From Dehalococcoidia bacterium (lineage in GTDB: Bacteria > Chloroflexota > Dehalococcoidia > GIF9 > AB-539-J10), in NCBI GenBank assembly GCA_030602865.1, contig JAUVYX010000016.1:1-9677 (forward strand): a stretch of DNA of 9,677 nucleotides. Reading direction: 5' to 3'. Positions 1 to 9,677 of the stretch are shown here, one piece after another. The number at the start of each line of letters is the position of its first letter. Positions within the stretch are counted from its first letter, which is position 1. The translations under genes were made by a program, and so were the position numbers. The notes under the pieces were generated by a model. That model was not told the origin of the DNA, ran no database searches, and saw only the letters and a program-made list of their open reading frames with translations.

Positions 1-2718
1 AAACCGCTGCTGCTGCTTTTTGATGGTAATGCCCTGGTGCATCGTGCATATCATGCTATACCTCCACTAACTGTTTCAAAAACCGGAGAGCTTGTTAATG
101 CAGTGTATGGATTTACCAGTATATTACTTAAAGTCCTTGCCGAATTACAGCCAGACTATTGGGCTGTTGCCTTTGACTATACAGTTCCTAAATTTCGGCA
201 TAAAATGTTTGAAGTCTATAATGCGCAGCGAATAAAGACACCAGAGGAACTTATAAAACAAATCATACGAGTGCATCATCTGGTGGAGGTTTTAAATATT
301 CCTGTTTTCGAAGTTGATGGTTATGAGGCTGATGATATTTTGGGAACATTAAGTGGGAAGGCTGTAGAGATGGGGGTTGACAGCGTTATCGCTACAGGGG
401 ATAACGATATGCTGCAATTGCTGTCGCCAGATATCAAGGCTTTTATGCCCAGGCGTAGCTTTAACGATAGCTTTCTTTATGACATAGAGGCCGTGCAGGC
501 AAAGTATGGGGTGAGTCCTGGGCAGATAGTGGACTATAAAGCCATGGTTGGTGACGCTTCGGATAATATCGCTGGCGTTCCTGGCATTGGAAGTAAAACA
601 GCGGCTAAACTGATTAAGAGTTATGGTAGCCTGGAAGAAATTTATGCTCATATCAATGAGATAGCGCCAAGTAAGTTACAAACAGCGTTGCGCCAAAATA
701 AAGCGCAGGCTTTTCAAAGCAAAGAGTTGGTTACTATAATCAAGGAAGTCCCTGTTGAATTGAATCTTGAAGATTGCCTGGTTAAAAACTTTGATAGGGA
801 AAAGGTGGTAGAACTTTTCCAAGAACTCGAGTTTAGCAAGTTACTTCCAAGATTGCCACGAATGGCGGATGCCAGGACTTTAACAGGTAAGGTCGGAGAC
901 GTTTCGAAAACCTCCTGCACTATTGTAGATTCAGAGGCGGTTTTGGGCAGGCTCATAGGTGGATTTAAAGGAGTAGCTGAAATAGTTATTTTGGGGCTCT
1001 TTTCTCGCGTAGCGGAGAGAAAAGGTAATAATACTACAGCCGCTTCTCTTGCTGGGATTGTAATGTCCCCGTCTAAGGGTAGCTCGTTCTATCTCCCTCT
1101 TGATCAATATAAATTGAACCGGTCTGCCCAGATTCCTCTTACTGAGCTGGTACAGCTCAAGCCGATTTTAGAGGATGCCGGTATAGTTAAAATAACTTAT
1201 GATGGTAAACGTGCATTGACTGCACTTTATAACTGTGGAATTAGCCTGCAATACTTGCATTTTGATTTGAAGATAGCGGCTTATCTGCTGGGAGAGAAGA
1301 ACTTGACTCTCGCCTCGCTCGCTTTCAATAAGCTGGGTGTGGAGATAATTTCTCTTGAGGAATTGCTGGGTACAAGAAATAGGCGTGCATCAGCAGCAAG
1401 GTTAGATACAGAACAAATTGCGGACTGTGCTTGTGCCAGTCTGGAAGCTATGTGGATGTTGCAGAAAGTTCTTAAGCAAGACCTCTGCCAGCAAGGATTA
1501 TGGCAACTATTCAGCGAACTGGAGATGCCCTTAGTGCCTGTGATGGCAGCAATGGAAAGAGATGGCATTGCTCTTGATACTCGATTGCTGAATGACATGT
1601 CTCTGGAATTAGGCGAAGAAATGCTGAAATTGGAACTGGAAATCTACAATAGCGTGGGCCATCAATTTAATATCAATTCCCCCAAGCAATTGGGTAAACT
1701 GTTGTTTGAAGAACTGAAACTGCCTTCGGTTCGTAAAAAGAAGAATGGCCATTCTACGGAGGCCGCAGTCTTGGAGGGATTGTTAGGCACCCATCCTATA
1801 ATTGAGTATATATTGAAGTATCGTCAACTCTCCAAACTCAAGACAACTTATGTTGATGCTCTACCAGCGTTGGTAGACCAGGCAACTGGGCGGGTACACA
1901 CCATTTTTAACCAGACTGGCACTACTACTGGGAGACTATCCTCCAGCGAACCTAATCTACAAAACATCCCGGTGAGAAGCACATTAGGAAGCAAGGTAAG
2001 GCAAGCCTTTATCGCTCCCGGAGGGTCTTATCTCTTAAGCGCAGACTATTCGCAGATCGACCTCAGGGCGCTGGCTCATCTTTCTCAGGATAAGGCTCTT
2101 ATTTCTAGTTTTAGACGCAATGATGATATTCATCGTATAACCGCCTCATCAATATTTGGTGTTTCGATAGACGAAGTGACTCCAGAGATGAGGCGCAATG
2201 CCAAAGCAGTTAATTTCGGTGTCATTTATGGTATGAGTGATTATGGACTAGTTCAAGCTACAGGAATAAGCAGGGAGGAAGCAGCCCAGTTTATCACTAT
2301 CTATTTCGAGAGGTATCCTGGTGTGAGAAAATATATGGAAACGACCAAGGAGCAGGCGAGGAAATTAGGTTATGTGCAGACGATAATGGGCAGGCGAAGA
2401 TTTATCCCAGAGATAAACTCGACGAATCGCATAATCAGGGCGGCAGCGGAACGGATGGCCATCAATGCTCCTGTGCAGGGAACTTCTGCCGATATAATTA
2501 AAGTTGCCATGCTTAATATATATAGGGAAATGAAGAAACGTGAATTGAAGAGCAAGATGCTTTTACAGATTCACGATGAACTGCTGTTTGAAGTCCCTGA
2601 GGGAGAGATAGAAGAGATGAAGTCATTGACAAAACAACTCATGACAGATGCTATTAAACTTTCTGTGCCCTTAGAGATAAACATCAAGCTGGGTAGAAAC
2701 TGGGGCGAAATGGCCTAA
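1..2718 (+). CDS. polA: DNA polymerase I, N-terminus cut by the window edge
   Basis: Family A DNA polymerase for gap filling, Okazaki-fragment maturation and repair in the cytoplasm. The reading frame is open from base 1 and 905 residues are visible. The first ones (KPLLLLFDGNALVHRAY) match the beginning of PolA, so only a few codons and the start are missing; the GTG at 37 is internal. Residues about 1-285 form the 5'-nuclease with EADD, TGDND and GDASDN metal-binding motifs and a helix-hairpin-helix (GVPGIG). Residues about 300-510 are a proofreading-type fold that has lost its catalytic acids. Residues about 520-905 are the polymerase: motif A with Asp682, O-helix RRNAKAVNFGVIYG with Phe739, motif C with His858-Asp859. 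Spacing from Asp682 to Asp859 (177) equals E. coli Asp705 to Asp882. Oddities: Asp687 replaces the usual steric-gate Glu, and Asn74 and Asn135 replace common lysines in the nuclease domain. Identity is secure. Confidence 0.97.
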   Translation, partial: KPLLLLFDGNALVHRAYHAIPPLTVSKTGELVNAVYGFTSILLKVLAELQPDYWAVAFDYTVPKFRHKMFEVYNAQRIKTPEELIKQIIRVHHLVEVLNIPVFEVDGYEADDILGTLSGKAVEMGVDSVIATGDNDMLQLLSPDIKAFMPRRSFNDSFLYDIEAVQAKYGVSPGQIVDYKAMVGDASDNIAGVPGIGSKTAAKLIKSYGSLEEIYAHINEIAPSKLQTALRQNKAQAFQSKELVTIIKEVPVELNLEDCLVKNFDREKVVELFQELEFSKLLPRLPRMADARTLTGKVGDVSKTSCTIVDSEAVLGRLIGGFKGVAEIVILGLFSRVAERKGNNTTAASLAGIVMSPSKGSSFYLPLDQYKLNRSAQIPLTELVQLKPILEDAGIVKITYDGKRALTALYNCGISLQYLHFDLKIAAYLLGEKNLTLASLAFNKLGVEIISLEELLGTRNRRASAARLDTEQIADCACASLEAMWMLQKVLKQDLCQQGLWQLFSELEMPLVPVMAAMERDGIALDTRLLNDMSLELGEEMLKLELEIYNSVGHQFNINSPKQLGKLLFEELKLPSVRKKKNGHSTEAAVLEGLLGTHPIIEYILKYRQLSKLKTTYVDALPALVDQATGRVHTIFNQTGTTTGRLSSSEPNLQNIPVRSTLGSKVRQAFIAPGGSYLLSADYSQIDLRALAHLSQDKALISSFRRNDDIHRITASSIFGVSIDEVTPEMRRNAKAVNFGVIYGMSDYGLVQATGISREEAAQFITIYFERYPGVRKYMETTKEQARKLGYVQTIMGRRRFIPEINSTNRIIRAAAERMAINAPVQGTSADIIKVAMLNIYREMKKRELKSKMLLQIHDELLFEVPEGEIEEMKSLTKQLMTDAIKLSVPLEINIKLGRNWGEMA

Positions 2719-2723: not shown

Positions 2724-4130
2724 TTATTTTTGAAAAAAAGCAGCGATATCGTTTGCAGACCGTTTTCCGGCTCCCATGGCGCTAATAACTGTAGCTGCAC
2801 CTGTAGCCATGTCACCTCCACACCACACTCTATCTTTACTTGTTCTTCCGGTTAGCTCGTCGGTTTTTATGGTACCCCATCTGGTAAGTTCAAGCCCCTT
2901 AGTCGATGAGGGGATAATTGGATTTGGCTTATTTCCCAGAGCTATGATTACAACGTCGACGTCAATTGAGAACTCGGTGCCTGGCTTTGCGATTGGTCGC
3001 CTTCGACCACTATCATCTGGTTCTCCAAGTTCCATTTCAATGCATTCCATTTCCCTTACTTTACCCTGCTCATCACCAAAGAACCTTGTAGGATTTGTTA
3101 AATATTTGAAGATAATCCCTTCCTCTTCTGCATTTTCGCTTTCCTCTGCCCTGGCTGGCATTTCTAACTTAGAGCGGCGATATATGATATAGACCTCTTC
3201 AGTTCCCAGTCTTAATGCACATCGGGAAGCGTCCATGGCTACATTTCCACCTCCGATGACAGCTACCTTTCTTCCTATTGTTATCGGGGTGTCATATTCA
3301 GGAAAGAGGTAAGCCTTCATCAGGTTTGTCCTGGTAAGAAATTCATTGGCGGAATAAATGTTACTGAGGTTTTCGCCGGGTATGTTTAAGAACATTGGTG
3401 CCCCTGCGCCTGGGGCTAGAAACACAGCGTCATAGCTATTATCTAATAGTTCATCCACAGTGGCGATTTTGCCTATTACCTGGTCAAATTTTATTTCTAC
3501 GCCTAGGGACTTTACATAATTAACTTCATTCTGGACAATGCTTTTAGGCAACCTGAACTCGGGAATTCCATACATAAGTACCCCTCCAGCAGTATGAAGT
3601 GCCTCGAAAATGGTAACTTTAAAACCTCGCTTGGCCAGGTCAGCAGCACAAGCTAATCCTGCTGGTCCGGAACCAACAATAGCTACCCTTTTCCCCTTAG
3701 ATTGCACACGAGTTTTTTGTTTTTCAATAACTTCATGATGGGCTCGTTCCCAATCAGCAACATATCGCTCCAAACGTCCAATGGCGATAGGCGCCTCTTT
3801 CTTGGCTAAAATACACTTTAGTTCACATTGTGTTTCCTGCGGGCATACTCTTCCGCAAATTCCAGGAAGGCTATTCTTCCTCTTCATTATTCTAACAGCT
3901 TCTGGCATGTCGCCATCTTGTAGCGCTTTTATGAACTCAGGTATATCTATATCGACAGGACAACCTGCTTTGCACAGGGGTTTCTTGCATTGTATGCATC
4001 GCTTAGCTTCCTCCAATGCCTGTTCTTCAGTATATCCCAGGGCTACTTCATGGAAATTTCTCTTCCTTCCCTCTGCCTCTTGTTTAAGCATAGGCACTCG
4101 GTTTAAATTTATCTTCCTCTTTTCAGCCAT
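2724..4130 (-). CDS. nfnB: NfnB/SudA-type (GltA-like) NADPH-dependent flavoprotein with two [4Fe-4S] clusters
   Basis: A 468-residue GltD-family flavoprotein, full length for NfnB/SudA or the so-called homotetrameric NADPH glutamate synthase GltA. The N-terminal ferredoxin-like domain has Cys45, 48, 53 and 57 and Cys92, 96, 102 and 106. An FAD Rossmann motif (GSGPAG) lies at about 153-158. An NADP-type Rossmann motif (IGGGNVAMD) lies at 292-300 with a following arginine pair (YRR, 317-319) that suits the NADPH 2'-phosphate. A C-terminal FAD-contact motif (GGDMATGA) lies at 438-445. There is no glutaminase or large synthase subunit nearby. The gene directly upstream encodes the NfnA partner, so I favour the large subunit of the bifurcating NADH/ferredoxin:NADP+ oxidoreductase over glutamate synthase. 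The ATG at 4130 fits family N-termini and no start codon lies just upstream in frame, though the AGGAG is unusually close. It is the last gene of the operon; its stop is 5 nt from the polA stop. Confidence 0.9.
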   Translation of the reverse strand: MAEKRKINLNRVPMLKQEAEGRKRNFHEVALGYTEEQALEEAKRCIQCKKPLCKAGCPVDIDIPEFIKALQDGDMPEAVRIMKRKNSLPGICGRVCPQETQCELKCILAKKEAPIAIGRLERYVADWERAHHEVIEKQKTRVQSKGKRVAIVGSGPAGLACAADLAKRGFKVTIFEALHTAGGVLMYGIPEFRLPKSIVQNEVNYVKSLGVEIKFDQVIGKIATVDELLDNSYDAVFLAPGAGAPMFLNIPGENLSNIYSANEFLTRTNLMKAYLFPEYDTPITIGRKVAVIGGGNVAMDASRCALRLGTEEVYIIYRRSKLEMPARAEESENAEEEGIIFKYLTNPTRFFGDEQGKVREMECIEMELGEPDDSGRRRPIAKPGTEFSIDVDVVIIALGNKPNPIIPSSTKGLELTRWGTIKTDELTGRTSKDRVWCGGDMATGAATVISAMGAGKRSANDIAAFFQK

Positions 4131-4157: not shown

Positions 4158-4973
4158 TTACCAAAGTTCTAATGATTCCTTTTCCGCATAAAGATAGCTG
4201 TGCTGACGATTCATAAGCAAATCCCAATCAACTTCATGCCCATCGAAATTCGGTCCATCCACGCAGGCGAATTTCGTCTCCCCTTTTATAGAAACACGGC
4301 AGGCCCCGCACATACCTGTCCCATCAACCATTATTGGGTTAAGACTCACTATAGTCTTGACGCCGAAGGGTTTTGTCACTTCAGAACAAAGCATCATCAT
4401 AAAAGTGCAACCATGAGCAAATACCCTGTCTAGTTTATTACCCCCTTCTAGCATCTCCTTTAGTTGATCGGGGGCCCATCCTTTATATCCATAAGAGCCA
4501 TCACCTGTGGTTACTATCACTCGGTCGCTAAATTGTTCCAATCTATTTTGCCAATAAAGGAGACTTTTATGCCTTGCCTCAATTATAGAAATGACCTCGT
4601 TCCCCTTTTCCTTCAACGCTCGAATTTCCGGCAATATAGCGCCAATCCCATAGCATCCTCCTGCACAAACCACTCTACCAAACTTTTTAATTTCCGTAGG
4701 CAACCCTAAAGGACCAACAAAGTTGACCAACGAATCACCAGCTTGAAGTTGGGCTAGCTTATGGGTCGTCTTGCCTACTTCAAGGAAAATGATTGTGATT
4801 GTGCCTTCATCTCTATCCCAATTTGCAATGGTTAGCGGAATGCGTTCCCCTTGTTCGTCACTCCTAATAATGGCAAATTGTCCTGGCTGAACTTTCCTCG
4901 CCACCTCTGGCGCTTCTATTTTTAGAATGTAAAAATTAGAAACTAAGTTTTCTTTGGCTACAATTCTATACAT
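4158..4973 (-). CDS. nfnA: NfnA/SudB-type FAD/[2Fe-2S] NAD-binding subunit
   Basis: A 271-residue protein of the PyrK/SudB/NfnA family (ferredoxin-NADP reductase fold), small subunit of NADH-dependent reduced ferredoxin:NADP+ oxidoreductase. It carries the FAD thought to bifurcate electrons between NAD(H) and ferredoxin. Residues about 1-95 form the FAD-binding barrel with RIPLTIAN at 44-51 and GPLGLPT at 87-93. Residues about 97-200 are the NAD-binding domain (CAGGCYGIG at 103-111). The C-terminal cluster loop has Cys222, Cys225 and Cys237, with Asp217 where PyrK has its first cysteine. That Asp/Cys3 pattern is typical of NfnA, and separates it from PyrK. The frame extends 13 codons further upstream to an ATG at 5012. 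I chose the ATG at 4973 because GGAG precedes it by 5 nt and the protein then starts at the family position (MYRIVAKE). It overlaps the end of fdhA by 16 nt in another frame and precedes its partner nfnB. Confidence 0.9.
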   Translation of the reverse strand: MYRIVAKENLVSNFYILKIEAPEVARKVQPGQFAIIRSDEQGERIPLTIANWDRDEGTITIIFLEVGKTTHKLAQLQAGDSLVNFVGPLGLPTEIKKFGRVVCAGGCYGIGAILPEIRALKEKGNEVISIIEARHKSLLYWQNRLEQFSDRVIVTTGDGSYGYKGWAPDQLKEMLEGGNKLDRVFAHGCTFMMMLCSEVTKPFGVKTIVSLNPIMVDGTGMCGACRVSIKGETKFACVDGPNFDGHEVDWDLLMNRQHSYLYAEKESLELW

Positions 4974-7717
4974 GTATTCTCCAGCGAAGTTTTCTCTATC
5001 TTTACGGCGCATACCTTAAATCCAGGGATCTTGGATGTAGGATCAACCATAGGGTTAATTAAGCTTTCAGCCAGATGGAGATTCATGCTTACAATGCCCG
5101 ATGCTACAACTTCAGTGACCTTAGCCTTAACGGTTAATTCTCCTCGGCGTGAGATTACTTTTACTACATCCTCATCATTTATTCCTAGCTTAGTAGCGTC
5201 ACATGGATTCATCTCCACCGTCTCCTTAGGGCTAAGTACTTCAAGCCCTCTCACTTTAGAGGTAAGAACCTTATTATATAAATGATATAGACTGTACTCA
5301 GTAATGAGGATTAAGGGGTAAATTTCATCTGGCAACTCAGCCGATGGTTTATATTTGAGAGCTGCAAATCTTCCTTTACCATTAGCGAATTTATCGGGAT
5401 AAAGAATCGGCGTTCCCTGGTGGTTATTATCGGGACAAGGCCACTGCAAACCACCACCCTCTAACCTCTCATAAGTAATACCACTATAGTTGGGGATAAT
5501 GGTAGTTATTTCCTCCATTATTTGGGAGGGGTGATCAAAATGAAAACCCTTAGCCCCCATTTTCTCTGCAACTTGGCATATAATCTGCCAATCGGGCTTG
5601 GAATTGCCTATAGTTTTAATGGCCTTTCTTACTCGCTGTACCTTCCGCTCAGCACTGGTGAAGGTGCCATCCTTTTCGGCAAAACTTGATGTTGGCAATA
5701 CTACATGCGCTAGTTGCGATATCTCAGAGGGGAAGCAATCTTGAACGATCAGAATTTCTAGTTCTTCCAACCAATGTCGCAATTTATCAGGGAGGGGCTG
5801 GTTAAAAATGGGGTTGCCAATCAAATATAGTGCCTTTATTTGATTTTCGGACCCATCATTGAAAATTTCGCTAAAGGTCGACCCTGGTTTTGATGAGAGG
5901 GTACAACCCCAGTCTCTCTCAAACTTGGCCTTGCTTGTCTCTATATTTACAGGTTGATAATCAGGGTAAAAATCTGCTATAGCTCCCATATCACAAGCAC
6001 CATGTGCATTATTTTCCCCCTCCAACGGATAGATCCCGGAGGAGGGTTTGCCCAAATTTCCGGTAAGCATGGCTAGATTGCACAGGGCAAGTACATTATT
6101 TGTGCCATGGGTATGTTGAGTGATTCCTGTTCCATAGAGAATTACACCTGGTTTTTGCTTAGCATAAGTCCGTGCTGTCTCAACTACTTGTTGCCAGGCT
6201 ATGCCAGTAACCCTTTCTACAAAATCTGGAGTAAAATTTCTAAGAGCTTCTTTAAAATCATTGAAATTCTCACAGCGCTCCTCAATGAATGGCCAATCAG
6301 CCAGGTTCTCGTCCACTATAACTCGCATCATGCCCATAAATAAGGCAACATCACTGCCTGGTAGAAGTTGCAGCCAGCTATAAGCAAAACGACATAAGTC
6401 GATCCTTCGCGGATTTATTACGATGAGCTTTGCTCCTTTATCCACCGCCCTCTTTATCTCTGCCCTAATAATGGGATTGTCACAGGAAGTATTGCTGCCA
6501 ATGAGCAATATACAAGCAGCATCGCCTATCTCGCTAATTGAGTTTGTCATTCCAGGACTGCCAAAGCTTTGGCTTAAGCTAAATAATGAAGGGGAATGAG
6601 ATAGACGAGATGACTGGTGGTCGATGTTATTACTGTTCATCACTGTACGGACAAACTTTTGTGCGATGTAATAACCTTCATTAGTGCATGTAGATGAGCA
6701 TATAAGTGCAAATTGCTCACCTTTATAATTAGTCAATTTACTAGCTATTAGGTTTGCAGTTTCTTCCCATGTGGCTGTTTCTAGCTTTCCATCTCTCTTT
6801 ATCAAAGGAGATTTTAGGCGGCTAGGGTGGTGAATAGGTCCTCGGATGGCAAAACGACCTTTAACACAAGCTAAACCGTGATTTACCCCGTCTTCAGCGG
6901 GCACAGAAGCGGCCACTTTTCCACCCTTAACTTCAAGGTTCAACTGGCAACCAATTCCACAATAGGGGCAAGTAGTAAGTATCAATTGGCCACATACTCC
7001 TTCCCATCTTGCCGCTCGATCAATAAGCGAACCTGAGGGACAGGCGTCAACACAGGCACCACAAAATTGGCATCCCGAATCCTGCAAACTATGCCCAAAC
7101 GCAGTGCCCACAAGGGCTTTTGGCCCTCTATAAGTAAAGGCAATGGCACTTACTCCTATTGACTCGTGACAGACTCTCACACAGCGCCCACAGAGAATAC
7201 ACAGGTTATAATCACGGTCAATAAAAGGTGAATTCATTAATACAGGAAGCTCTCTGGGACGGTAAGTTAAGCTCATATTATTGAGACCAACATACTCCAC
7301 CACTTTTTGCAGCTCACATTTTCCCTTCTTAGGGCAGGTATGGCAGCCTACAACCATACCGGTTTTTTGAATGCCAGGTGAAAATGACTCACAGCGCTCA
7401 CGGCGCTCACAAACAGCACAGAAGTAAGGATGCTCGCTTAGAATCAGTTCTAATACACCGCGTCGCAGTTCTTGAATTCTTTTAGTATTAGTATGAACTA
7501 TCATCCCGTTGGTAGCCGGTGTAGTACATGAAGAAGGGAAACCGCGCATTTTTTCGATTTGTACAATGCAGAGCCGACAGGCGCCAAAGGAGGATAAGCT
7601 TGATTGGTAGCAAAGAGTGGGAATGTAAATTTCAGCCTTTTTCGCAGCTTCTAAAACTGTAGCTCCTTTTTCAGCTACGATTTCTTCTCCATCAATAGTC
7701 AAGGTAATGGTATTCAT
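4958..7717 (-). CDS. fdhA: FdhA/NuoG-like cytoplasmic molybdopterin oxidoreductase with Ser at the metal-ligand site
   Basis: A 919-residue DMSO-reductase-superfamily protein with the architecture of soluble NAD(P)-linked formate dehydrogenase catalytic subunits. In order: [2Fe-2S] domain (Cys36, 47, 50, 64); NuoG-type His-Cys motif (His96, Cys100, 103, 109) followed by a second triplet (Cys125, 128, 134); two ferredoxin clusters (Cys173, 176, 179, 183 and Cys216, 219, 222, 226); molybdopterin [4Fe-4S] (Cys250, 253, 257, 284) with Lys286; then the bis-pterin Mo/W domains to the C-terminus. There is no twin-arginine signal or membrane segment, so it is cytoplasmic. The active site departs from formate dehydrogenase: Ser373 (TCT) stands where Sec/Cys ligates the metal, followed by the conserved His374, and Glu566 and Glu568 replace Arg and Gln. 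Automated annotation would probably say formate dehydrogenase alpha; I consider the real substrate unknown. The ATG at 7717 gives the expected N-terminus. It starts 9 nt after the upstream stop with only weak purine-rich sequence before it, suggesting coupled translation. Confidence 0.92.
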   Translation of the reverse strand: MNTITLTIDGEEIVAEKGATVLEAAKKAEIYIPTLCYQSSLSSFGACRLCIVQIEKMRGFPSSCTTPATNGMIVHTNTKRIQELRRGVLELILSEHPYFCAVCERRERCESFSPGIQKTGMVVGCHTCPKKGKCELQKVVEYVGLNNMSLTYRPRELPVLMNSPFIDRDYNLCILCGRCVRVCHESIGVSAIAFTYRGPKALVGTAFGHSLQDSGCQFCGACVDACPSGSLIDRAARWEGVCGQLILTTCPYCGIGCQLNLEVKGGKVAASVPAEDGVNHGLACVKGRFAIRGPIHHPSRLKSPLIKRDGKLETATWEETANLIASKLTNYKGEQFALICSSTCTNEGYYIAQKFVRTVMNSNNIDHQSSRLSHSPSLFSLSQSFGSPGMTNSISEIGDAACILLIGSNTSCDNPIIRAEIKRAVDKGAKLIVINPRRIDLCRFAYSWLQLLPGSDVALFMGMMRVIVDENLADWPFIEERCENFNDFKEALRNFTPDFVERVTGIAWQQVVETARTYAKQKPGVILYGTGITQHTHGTNNVLALCNLAMLTGNLGKPSSGIYPLEGENNAHGACDMGAIADFYPDYQPVNIETSKAKFERDWGCTLSSKPGSTFSEIFNDGSENQIKALYLIGNPIFNQPLPDKLRHWLEELEILIVQDCFPSEISQLAHVVLPTSSFAEKDGTFTSAERKVQRVRKAIKTIGNSKPDWQIICQVAEKMGAKGFHFDHPSQIMEEITTIIPNYSGITYERLEGGGLQWPCPDNNHQGTPILYPDKFANGKGRFAALKYKPSAELPDEIYPLILITEYSLYHLYNKVLTSKVRGLEVLSPKETVEMNPCDATKLGINDEDVVKVISRRGELTVKAKVTEVVASGIVSMNLHLAESLINPMVDPTSKIPGFKVCAVKIEKTSLENTCIEL
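4979..4982 (-). promoter_or_regulatory. Ribosome binding site that fixes the nfnA start
   Basis: The minus strand reads CTGGAGAATAC-ATG, with GGAG five bases before the ATG at 4973. The longer alternative ATG at 5012 has only an AAGG one base away and would add 13 residues with no family counterpart. The site lies inside the last codons of fdhA, so nfnA translation is likely coupled to it. Confidence 0.75.
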
Positions 7718-7726
7718 GCTCGTCTT

Positions 7727-9677
7727 CTAAATTGACTCCTCTAAATCACACAGCAAGCATCGTCTTGCTTCCCCTCTTGCTGTTTCTTCGCTGATTTCCA
7801 GCTCTACCTCAGCAAAGCTATGAAGCCGCTCATGCAAAGGTAGAGTAGGAACTGTAAGACGATGTTTTTTCTCGTCGATCTCGGAAAATGCTACTTCTTC
7901 GTCAGGTGTTGACAAGATTTCATCAACTACTCCATCGCCGCCGAGATACTTGTCTATAGAGATTGCTGCTTGTCTTCCTGCAGCAACAGCTTCAACGACC
8001 GTAGCTGCTCCAGTCACGGCGTCGCCGCCGGCAAACACACCCTTTCTATCTGTAGCTAAGGTGTAGAGGTCAGCTTGGAACCTATTCCCCCTTCTGAGGG
8101 CAACCCCAAATCGTTCTGATGCCTCTGGCATCTGACCAATAGCGACGATCACGGCATCAAAGCTTGAACTATATTCGCTGCCCTCTATTGGCACTGGGCG
8201 TCTTCTACAACTGGCATCCACTGCCCCCAACTCCATGCGAATACAGGTAAGCTCCACTTTAGCATTTTCTCTCTCCACTTTAACGGGCGCAGTAAGGAAT
8301 TCCATCTTTACCCCTTCCTGTATCGCTTCCTCTATTTCCTCAATTCCTGCTGGCATCTCGGCTTTGGTGCGGCGATAGATAACCATTACCTCCTTAGCAC
8401 CAAGGCGAAGTGCGGTGCGTGAAACGTCTATAGCGGTATTGCCTCCACCAATGACCGCCACTTTATCTCCTACCTTAACCTTATCTCCCATATTTATATT
8501 TTTAAGCCAAGATACACCTTCCATAACACCAGCGCAGTCCTCCCCTTCGACTCCTAACTTAACCCCTTGGTGAGCACCAATAGCAAGGAAGATGGCATCG
8601 TAACCCTGGGTGAAAAGATCATCCAGGGAGCTTATCTTAGCATTTGTTCTTATATCGACTCCGAAGCTTTTTATTTCCTCAATTTCACCAGCTAGCACTT
8701 CTCTAGGTAGTCGATATTCAGGAATTCCATAGCGAAGCATACCGCCTGGTTCGGGGAGCGCCTCAAATACAGTGACGGAATGTCCTTGCTTCGCCAGGTA
8801 ATAGCTTGCAGTTAATCCTGCTGGTCCAGAACCGATAATGGCAACACAATTACCTGTAGCTGGAGTTATCTTTGTCCTGGTTTTCCAAAGTTCGTTGCCC
8901 TTCTCTACCGCTATGCGATGGAGTACCCTTGTAGCCACCGCTTCATCTAGCAGACCTCGCCGACATTTACCTTCACAGAAAGCGAGGCAAACATATCCAA
9001 GTGTTTCAGCGAAAGGTAGCTTCTCTCTGAGTACGGCTAGCGCTTCATCAAACTTATCTCGGTGGATGAAGCGAAGGAAACGAGGCACATCCACACCAGC
9101 AGGGCAGAGATGACTACATGGTGCTTTGACTAATCCCTTGCAAACTGCGGAAGGACATTTCTTCCCCTTAATATGGGCTTCATATTCATTGGGGAAGTAG
9201 CGAAGGGAGGTTAAAACTGGATTAGGAGCTGTACCTCCTAAGGCACATAATGCGCTGTCCCTAACCGTTTCAGCAAGGCGTTGCAGTTTATCGATATCTT
9301 CCTCTTCCCCTTCGCCCCGGCATATGCGCTCTAAAATATCGAGCATCTGCCTTGTGCCCACACGACAAGGTACACATTTACCACAAGATTCTGACTGAGT
9401 GAAGGTAAGGAAGAATCTTGCCATGTCAACTATACAATTATCTTCGTCAGCTACTACCATGCCTCCTGAACCCATAATAGAGCCAAGTTTGGTTAGGGAT
9501 TCATAGTCAATAGGGGTTTCTAAAAGTTCAGGGGGGATGAATCCTCCTGAAGCTCCTCCGGTTTGCACTGCTTTAATGCGTTTATCTCCAGTGATACCTC
9601 CCCCGATATCATAGATCACCTGACGTAGAGGGATGCCAAAAGGAACTTCAATAAGCCCGGTACGCTTTATTTTTCCA
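7727..9677 (-). CDS. NuoF-GltD fusion flavoprotein, 5' end beyond the window
   Basis: The frame is open to the right edge; 649 complete codons are visible (the GTG at 9619 is internal). Visible residues about 1-60 are the end of a NuoF-type module with the SLBB-like segment (TGGASGGFIP). Next is the NuoF iron-sulfur domain (SCGKCVPCR; Cys98, 101, 104 and 144), which in complex I and NAD-linked hydrogenases or formate dehydrogenases takes electrons from NADH-FMN. From about 170 a GltD-like module follows: Cys174, 179, 187, 191 and Cys230, 234, 238 for [4Fe-4S] clusters, FAD motif GSGPAG at 282-287, NADP-type motif IGGGNTAID at 409-417 with arginine pair 435-436, and GGDAVTGA near 550. The chain ends in a further ARRCLLCD motif. 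The FMN/NADH-binding half of NuoF should lie outside the window. I infer that this is the pyridine-nucleotide partner of the FdhA-like subunit encoded 9 nt downstream. GltD-like similarity here does not imply glutamate synthesis. Confidence 0.9.
   Translation of the reverse strand, partial: GKIKRTGLIEVPFGIPLRQVIYDIGGGITGDKRIKAVQTGGASGGFIPPELLETPIDYESLTKLGSIMGSGGMVVADEDNCIVDMARFFLTFTQSESCGKCVPCRVGTRQMLDILERICRGEGEEEDIDKLQRLAETVRDSALCALGGTAPNPVLTSLRYFPNEYEAHIKGKKCPSAVCKGLVKAPCSHLCPAGVDVPRFLRFIHRDKFDEALAVLREKLPFAETLGYVCLAFCEGKCRRGLLDEAVATRVLHRIAVEKGNELWKTRTKITPATGNCVAIIGSGPAGLTASYYLAKQGHSVTVFEALPEPGGMLRYGIPEYRLPREVLAGEIEEIKSFGVDIRTNAKISSLDDLFTQGYDAIFLAIGAHQGVKLGVEGEDCAGVMEGVSWLKNINMGDKVKVGDKVAVIGGGNTAIDVSRTALRLGAKEVMVIYRRTKAEMPAGIEEIEEAIQEGVKMEFLTAPVKVERENAKVELTCIRMELGAVDASCRRRPVPIEGSEYSSSFDAVIVAIGQMPEASERFGVALRRGNRFQADLYTLATDRKGVFAGGDAVTGAATVVEAVAAGRQAAISIDKYLGGDGVVDEILSTPDEEVAFSEIDEKKHRLTVPTLPLHERLHSFAEVELEISEETARGEARRCLLCDLEESI

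Follow-up and report, generated by a model that had tools for sequence, protein, structure and literature searches.

A formate dehydrogenase-like protein of Dehalococcoidia with serine at the metal-ligand position: a candidate electron hub for NAD(P)H and ferredoxin

In the formate dehydrogenase (FDH) of R. capsulatus, Arg587 is the proposed binding residue for formate and CO2, and a review records that an H387M/R587T variant with an added arginine showed nitrate reductase activity (PMC10385643). E. coli FDH-H is reported in PMC10779653 to be inactive with serine in place of selenocysteine. The FdhF-like domain of StnC is described as catalytically inactive in the accessible part of PMC10482914, which traces electrons in StnABC from the GltD-type FAD through the NuoG clusters to StnB, and a paper on the Bfu family predicts Fdh-Bfu and Nfn-Bfu enzymes (PMC9304861, accessible part). 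A natural serine in place of Cys/Sec is already known from the exported OmeA (PMC5736913, accessible part), a precedent that the preliminary description of the DNA analysed here had invoked and that is indeed in print.

In the window, the stretch of 9,677 nucleotides analysed here, an FdhA-like protein is encoded between a NuoF-GltD fusion and NfnA- and NfnB-like subunits (Table 1). The order FdhA-like, NfnA, NfnB, polA is common to the window and to L004, a contig of a Dehalococcoidia MAG that is the nearest named relative and whose FdhA-like protein is 84% identical. The FdhA-like reading frame is intact in both, and no substrate or pathway gene is seen near it in the window or in L004. NfnA and NfnB follow the FdhA-like gene in both contexts seen, corresponding to two of the 14 Ser-Glu-Glu proteins described below.

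Table 1. Coordinates of genes, domains and active-site residues in the window
Feature	Position	Strand	Remarks
polA	1-2718	+	convergent to four minus-strand genes
NfnB-like (GltA/NADPH) subunit	2724..4130	-	domain/family matches
NfnA-like FAD/NAD subunit	4158..5012	-	overlaps FdhA-like gene; likelier start 4973
FdhA-like protein, 919 aa	4958..7717	-	NuoG-like Fe-S N-terminus and molybdopterin (FDH) domain
NuoG-like N-terminal Fe-S domain, residues 1-235	7013..7717	-	domain match
NuoF-GltD fusion (FdhB-like)	7727..9676	-	N-terminal part cut by window end; GltD part about 7742-9121
Ser373 codon TCT, Cys/Sec metal-ligand position	6599..6601	-	alignment and codon reading
His374, active-site His equivalent beside ligand	6596..6598	-	kept in 13 of 14 Ser proteins
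Glu566 replacing formate/CO2-binding Arg587 (FdsA numbering)	6020..6022	-	
Glu568 replacing Gln589 (FdsA numbering)	6014..6016	-	
Cys250, 253, 257, 284 of [4Fe-4S] site and Lys286	6860..6970	-	kept

The FdhA-like protein is homologous to R. capsulatus FdsA (6tg9) over its full length (residues 4-908), and Ser373, Glu566 and Glu568 align with Cys386, Arg587 and Gln589 of that enzyme. The preliminary description had placed a TCT-encoded serine at the ligand position, and both the reading of codon 373 (6601..6599) and the alignment bear this out. The codon is not TGA in the window sequence, and the window protein has no alternative Cys within 28 residues of Ser373; recoding of TGA and a nearby Cys ligand were rejected on these grounds. 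Cys250/253/257/284 of the [4Fe-4S] site, Lys286 and His374 are retained. The same description had called the context of the ligand intact, which holds for the short motif R-L-S-H-S-P but not beyond it: Gln368 is a one-residue insertion upstream of the ligand (present in 13 of the 14 Ser-Glu-Glu proteins, absent in P0012), D-H-C-A-R has lost its Cys, and about 190 residues downstream of the ligand motif PLEGENN stands in place of PLRGQNN. Whatever the ligand, both Glu replacements argue against formate chemistry. By score the protein passes the curated FDH alpha model TIGR01591 (691.1 bits, cut-off 666.25), and it fails TIGR00509, the model of the Ser-ligated bisC family (128.4 bits, cut-off 1017.55). 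For its structure, predicted with modest confidence (mean pLDDT 70.2, residues 558-582 below 50), Foldseek ranked FdsA-type FDHs first. At the N-terminus, a 2Fe-2S domain starts at residue 3 and a twin-Arg signal is absent on reading the sequence, in agreement with the earlier assignment as NuoG-like and lacking an export signal. Residues 96-134 hold, after His96, two successive Cys3 motifs (C100/103/109 and C125/128/134) where FdsA has one; both are present in the consensus of 45 relatives, which makes an extra cluster possible.

The distribution of these residues was followed through the best 120 of 7085 homologues; two further protein searches likewise covered the best 120 of several thousand matches each. 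Serine occupies the ligand position in 15 of the best 120 of the 7085 homologues and is combined with Glu566 and Glu568 in 13 of them; the other two, P0036 and P0118, differ from these at 566 and/or 568 or in the surroundings of those positions (SHGL and SHRQ). Among the matches listed, 14 distinct Ser-Glu-Glu proteins were counted, the window protein included. One of them, P0008, is the protein of L004, with TCT as its ligand codon. His374 is replaced by Tyr in P0009 and kept in the other 13; Lys286 is replaced by Arg in P0036 and P0069. Trees were built from 194 catalytic domains and from 55 selected rows, the latter with matches of a further search added and the active-site columns omitted. 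The Ser-Glu-Glu proteins fall within a clade of 23 rows (SH-aLRT 97) together with two other groups. One consists of five proteins (four with Cys, one with Ser) in which position 566 is Gly, Val or Ala and position 568 is Leu or Met. The other is formed by L018 and L019 with the near copies P0241 and P0242, which have Tyr or His at 373 and Gln at 374, then Gly and Leu; L018 and L019 are flanked by a NuoF with a double ferredoxin domain (NuoF-2xFd) and by NfnA, like L004. Arg at 566 or Gln at 568 occurs in none of the 23 rows. Since these include rows that still have Cys, the loss of Arg probably preceded the change of ligand. Two proteins stand apart. P0118, the lone Ser-ligand protein with Arg and Gln kept, is placed among Cys enzymes and is either a real variant or a sequence error. 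P0037 is a natural FdhA-NfnA fusion of 1229 aa (FdhA part 58%, NfnA part 69% identical to those of the window); it carries Cys373, Asp374 and Lys566 and falls outside the clade.

In the family to which L004's genome belongs, 38 of 52 genomes contain a match at E 1e-100 or better. A census of 86 sequences plus the window, including duplicates and some fragments without a site, took all listed places except G028:C7 and G041:C79 (42% and 40% identity). Within it the Ser-Glu-Glu type occurs only in G001, L004's own genome, which also encodes a separate canonical FdhA (L047: CARLCH, PLRGQSN). A DNA pattern for PLEGENN (Glu-Gly-Glu) matched in three of 393 genomes of the class; the match in G001 is genuine, whereas unrelated frames account for the chance matches in G315 and G326. 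In L003 and L005 the ligand codon is an in-frame TGA that probably encodes Sec; across the wider family this position is thus taken by Sec, Cys, Ser or Tyr. Tyr marks a group of 16 proteins (L015, L016, L049, L053, L057, L059, L061, L063-L068, L070, L071, L076) separate from the Ser clade: all have Tyr at the ligand position, with Gln (15) or Tyr (one) at the Arg site, and Lys286 is replaced by Arg in 14 of them. Their neighbours include NuoE (16/16), NuoF (15/16) and GltD (11/16); loci lacking such a neighbour are cut at contig or locus ends, or, in L049, the neighbour is labelled NfnB at 39%. The Tyr group probably represents inactive Stn-like hubs annotated as formate dehydrogenases.

Upstream of its FdhA-like gene, L004 encodes NuoE and a NuoF of 632 aa that ends in a double [4Fe-4S] domain (L004 1607-3505). 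The best solved relatives of this NuoF are NiFe-HydB, 9bov_B, NfnB 9n5u_B, StnB and HydB, the bifurcating BfuB type. In the window NuoF, GltD replaces the C-terminal double ferredoxin domain of L004, while the visible NuoF parts are 95% identical; an assembly chimera at the junction is unlikely, because P0121 and P0122 carry the same fusion (88 and 86% identity to that of the window). NfnA and NfnB keep residues of bifurcating enzymes, namely the Arg near FAD N5, the CPQE-type cluster motif of NfnB and the D-TGMCGAC cluster motif of NfnA. The overlap of the FdhA-like and NfnA genes and the fusion in P0037 suggest subunit contact. If the window complex bifurcates, NfnAB would be the likelier site, since the window NuoF lacks the ferredoxin domain where StnB reduces ferredoxin.

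The reading favoured here, at a rough probability of 0.55, is that a former FDH alpha subunit that no longer oxidizes formate acts as a hub in an NAD(P)H/ferredoxin oxidoreductase. The Fe-S N-terminus would serve as wire and docking hub, in the manner of NuoG in complex I and of StnC in Stn. It would link an NfnAB transhydrogenase to a NuoF-type NAD(H) module that carries a fused GltD-type NAD(P) domain, and the complex would balance NADH, NADPH and ferredoxin. The pterin domain would stay as a structural part, probably with the cofactor still in place, and Ser373, Glu566 and Glu568 would have arisen once freed from formate chemistry. This view is supported by the inactive FdhF domain of StnC, by the position of NfnA and NfnB behind the FdhA-like gene in the window and in L004, by the overlap and fusion of FdhA and NfnA, and by the bifurcating-type residues of NfnAB. 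It is further favoured by the loss of Arg and Gln throughout the clade, accompanied in L018, L019, P0241 and P0242 by that of ligand and His, by the inactivity of E. coli FDH-H with Ser for Sec (PMC10779653), and by the better preservation of the N-domain than of the catalytic domain across the clade. The preliminary description had offered a new reaction or a structural or electron-transfer role; that choice was well put, although the two Glu residues, NfnA and NfnB and the active-site loss in relatives had been overlooked, and clade relatives whose active site is lost altogether favour its electron-transfer half. Several observations speak against the hub role: the conserved catalytic positions are mostly kept, beyond what a pure scaffold would seem to require; the Ser-Glu-Glu combination is uniform in 14 of 14 proteins, without drift; P0037, with its Cys, is not a member of the clade; and the resemblance to Stn is only partial, because the window NuoF lacks the double ferredoxin end found in L004.

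The strongest competitor, itself tentative, is an active Mo/W enzyme in which the Ser oxygen would ligate the metal and His374, Glu566 and Glu568 would form an acidic pocket. It might catalyse a new reaction, for example oxygen-atom transfer involving a neutral or cationic substrate, and exchange electrons via the NuoF, GltD and Nfn partners. A bifurcating-type FDH might thus have lost Arg and had its site rebuilt as Ser-His plus Glu-Gly-Glu and then fixed for a non-formate reaction on the NuoF-GltD/NfnAB hub of uncultured Dehalococcoidia, a course of events that the residues make conceivable but that is likewise put well short of even odds. Serine is the metal ligand in DMSO and TMAO reductases, and the Ser-Glu-Glu combination is uniform where other clade members vary. 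The FDH fold, moreover, can change its reaction, as the nitrate reductase activity of the R. capsulatus variant indicates (PMC10385643). Across 142 canonical rows (C or U at 373, H at 374, R at 566, Q or H at 568), 82 catalytic-domain positions are invariant to at least 98.5%. Twelve Ser proteins keep 73-77 of the 82, P0011 73 of 80 and P0012 71 of 76, as compared with 58 and 57 of 80 in L018 and L019 and 57-65 of 77-79 in the Tyr group, these being two separate Cys-less lineages. Met390, Asn541, Arg691 and Arg858 are present in 14 of 14 Ser proteins but missing from L018, L019 and all 16 Tyr proteins; Lys286 and Lys354 are kept in all 14 Ser-Glu-Glu proteins. Because these four residues are kept here and lost in both Cys-less lineages, the Ser proteins probably still hold the pterin, cofactor contact being read from the conservation pattern. 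The new reaction is weakened by the lack of a substrate or pathway gene nearby and by the score far under the cut-off of the bisC family model; in addition, part of the difference in retention could stem from the Ser line being younger.

Rates of change give a divided picture. The mean identity of Ser to canonical proteins is 0.609 in the N-domain and 0.561 in the catalytic domain, the reverse of the order among canonical pairs (0.656 and 0.712), which points to fast change of the catalytic domain at some time. Between the window and L004 the catalytic/N-domain dN ratio is 1.92. This value exceeds the canonical range (0.57-1.51, median 1.01, 19 overlapping and non-independent pairs) and comes close to the Tyr median (1.84, 46 overlapping pairs), which argues against the new reaction; L018 against L019 gives 1.2. 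The dN ratio and dN/dS disagree on recent rates with protein distances between independent pairs: the median ratio is 0.79 for five independent Ser pairs and 0.91 for 49 canonical pairs (p 0.46 for Ser above canonical), as against 1.56 in the Tyr group (four usable of five pairs, p 0.004). The lack of excess catalytic-domain change in the five Ser pairs counts against the hub role.

A persisting formate dehydrogenase or CO2 reductase activity at an unusual site is unlikely. The protein passes TIGR01591 and retains His374 and the Fe-S site, but judging from its residues FDH activity of the Ser-Glu-Glu proteins is improbable because Arg and Gln are lost as well as the ligand, which also speaks against an FDH with merely an unusual ligand, and the related genome G001 has its separate canonical FdhA. 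Early decay of a functionless gene is more improbable still: in the catalytic domain dN/dS (0.195) is roughly double the N-domain value (0.089) yet close to that of PolA (0.162), values indicating that the gene is under purifying selection, the frame is intact in the window and L004, identical residues recur in 14 proteins, and plain decay was not accepted since the Ser proteins keep residues missing from the Cys-less lineages. A sequencing or assembly error at codon 373 is hardly conceivable, as L004 has TCT too, 14 distinct proteins from several collections share the serine, and nothing was found in favour of an error.

As the protein passes the FDH model, automatic annotation credits genomes with formate or CO2 metabolism that most likely does not come from such a gene. 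Within a single family, the clade provides an active-site series (Cys with Arg, Cys without Arg, Ser with Glu-Glu, no usable ligand) and thereby a test of how the reaction of a pterin enzyme is lost or altered while the electron-transfer body persists, as in NuoG of complex I and StnC. In titles and abstract openings of the open-licence literature, no report was found of a soluble Ser-type FDH-like protein in Dehalococcoidia, nor of this clade under inactive FDH or FDH with Nfn.

Several features are shared, and several differ, between the window system and those described. R. capsulatus FdsA (6tg9) shares the NuoG-like N-terminus, the Fe-S site, the His and a NuoF partner, whereas the window protein has Ser, Glu and Glu for Cys386, Arg587 and Gln589, and NfnA and NfnB lie in its operon. 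OmeA of Dehalococcoides likewise has Ser for Cys/Sec in an FDH-like protein, with no FDH activity known in the accessible part of PMC5736913. The contrast drawn in the preliminary description also stands: by description, OmeA is a subunit of an outer-side membrane complex (PMC10772276, accessible part), whereas the window protein is NuoG-like with soluble partners. The downstream NfnA and NfnB resemble NfnAB of T. maritima (4ylf) and P. furiosus (5jca) in the N5-facing Arg and the cluster motifs. The NfnAB enzymes are not known to have an FdhA-like or NuoF subunit. The electron-bifurcating Fdh-Bfu/Nfn-Bfu complexes and Stn (8oh5, 9bov) likewise combine NuoF-type and NuoG/Fdh-like subunits with a GltD-type domain. 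In the window, however, GltD is fused to NuoF, while StnC unites GltD and NuoG/Fdh in one subunit; the window NuoF lacks the C-terminal ferredoxin domain, which L004 has; and the operon contains NfnA, in contrast to Stn. Set beside the inactive Fdh domain of the Stn type, the window protein has lost the ligand, Arg and Gln and mostly kept the other conserved positions.
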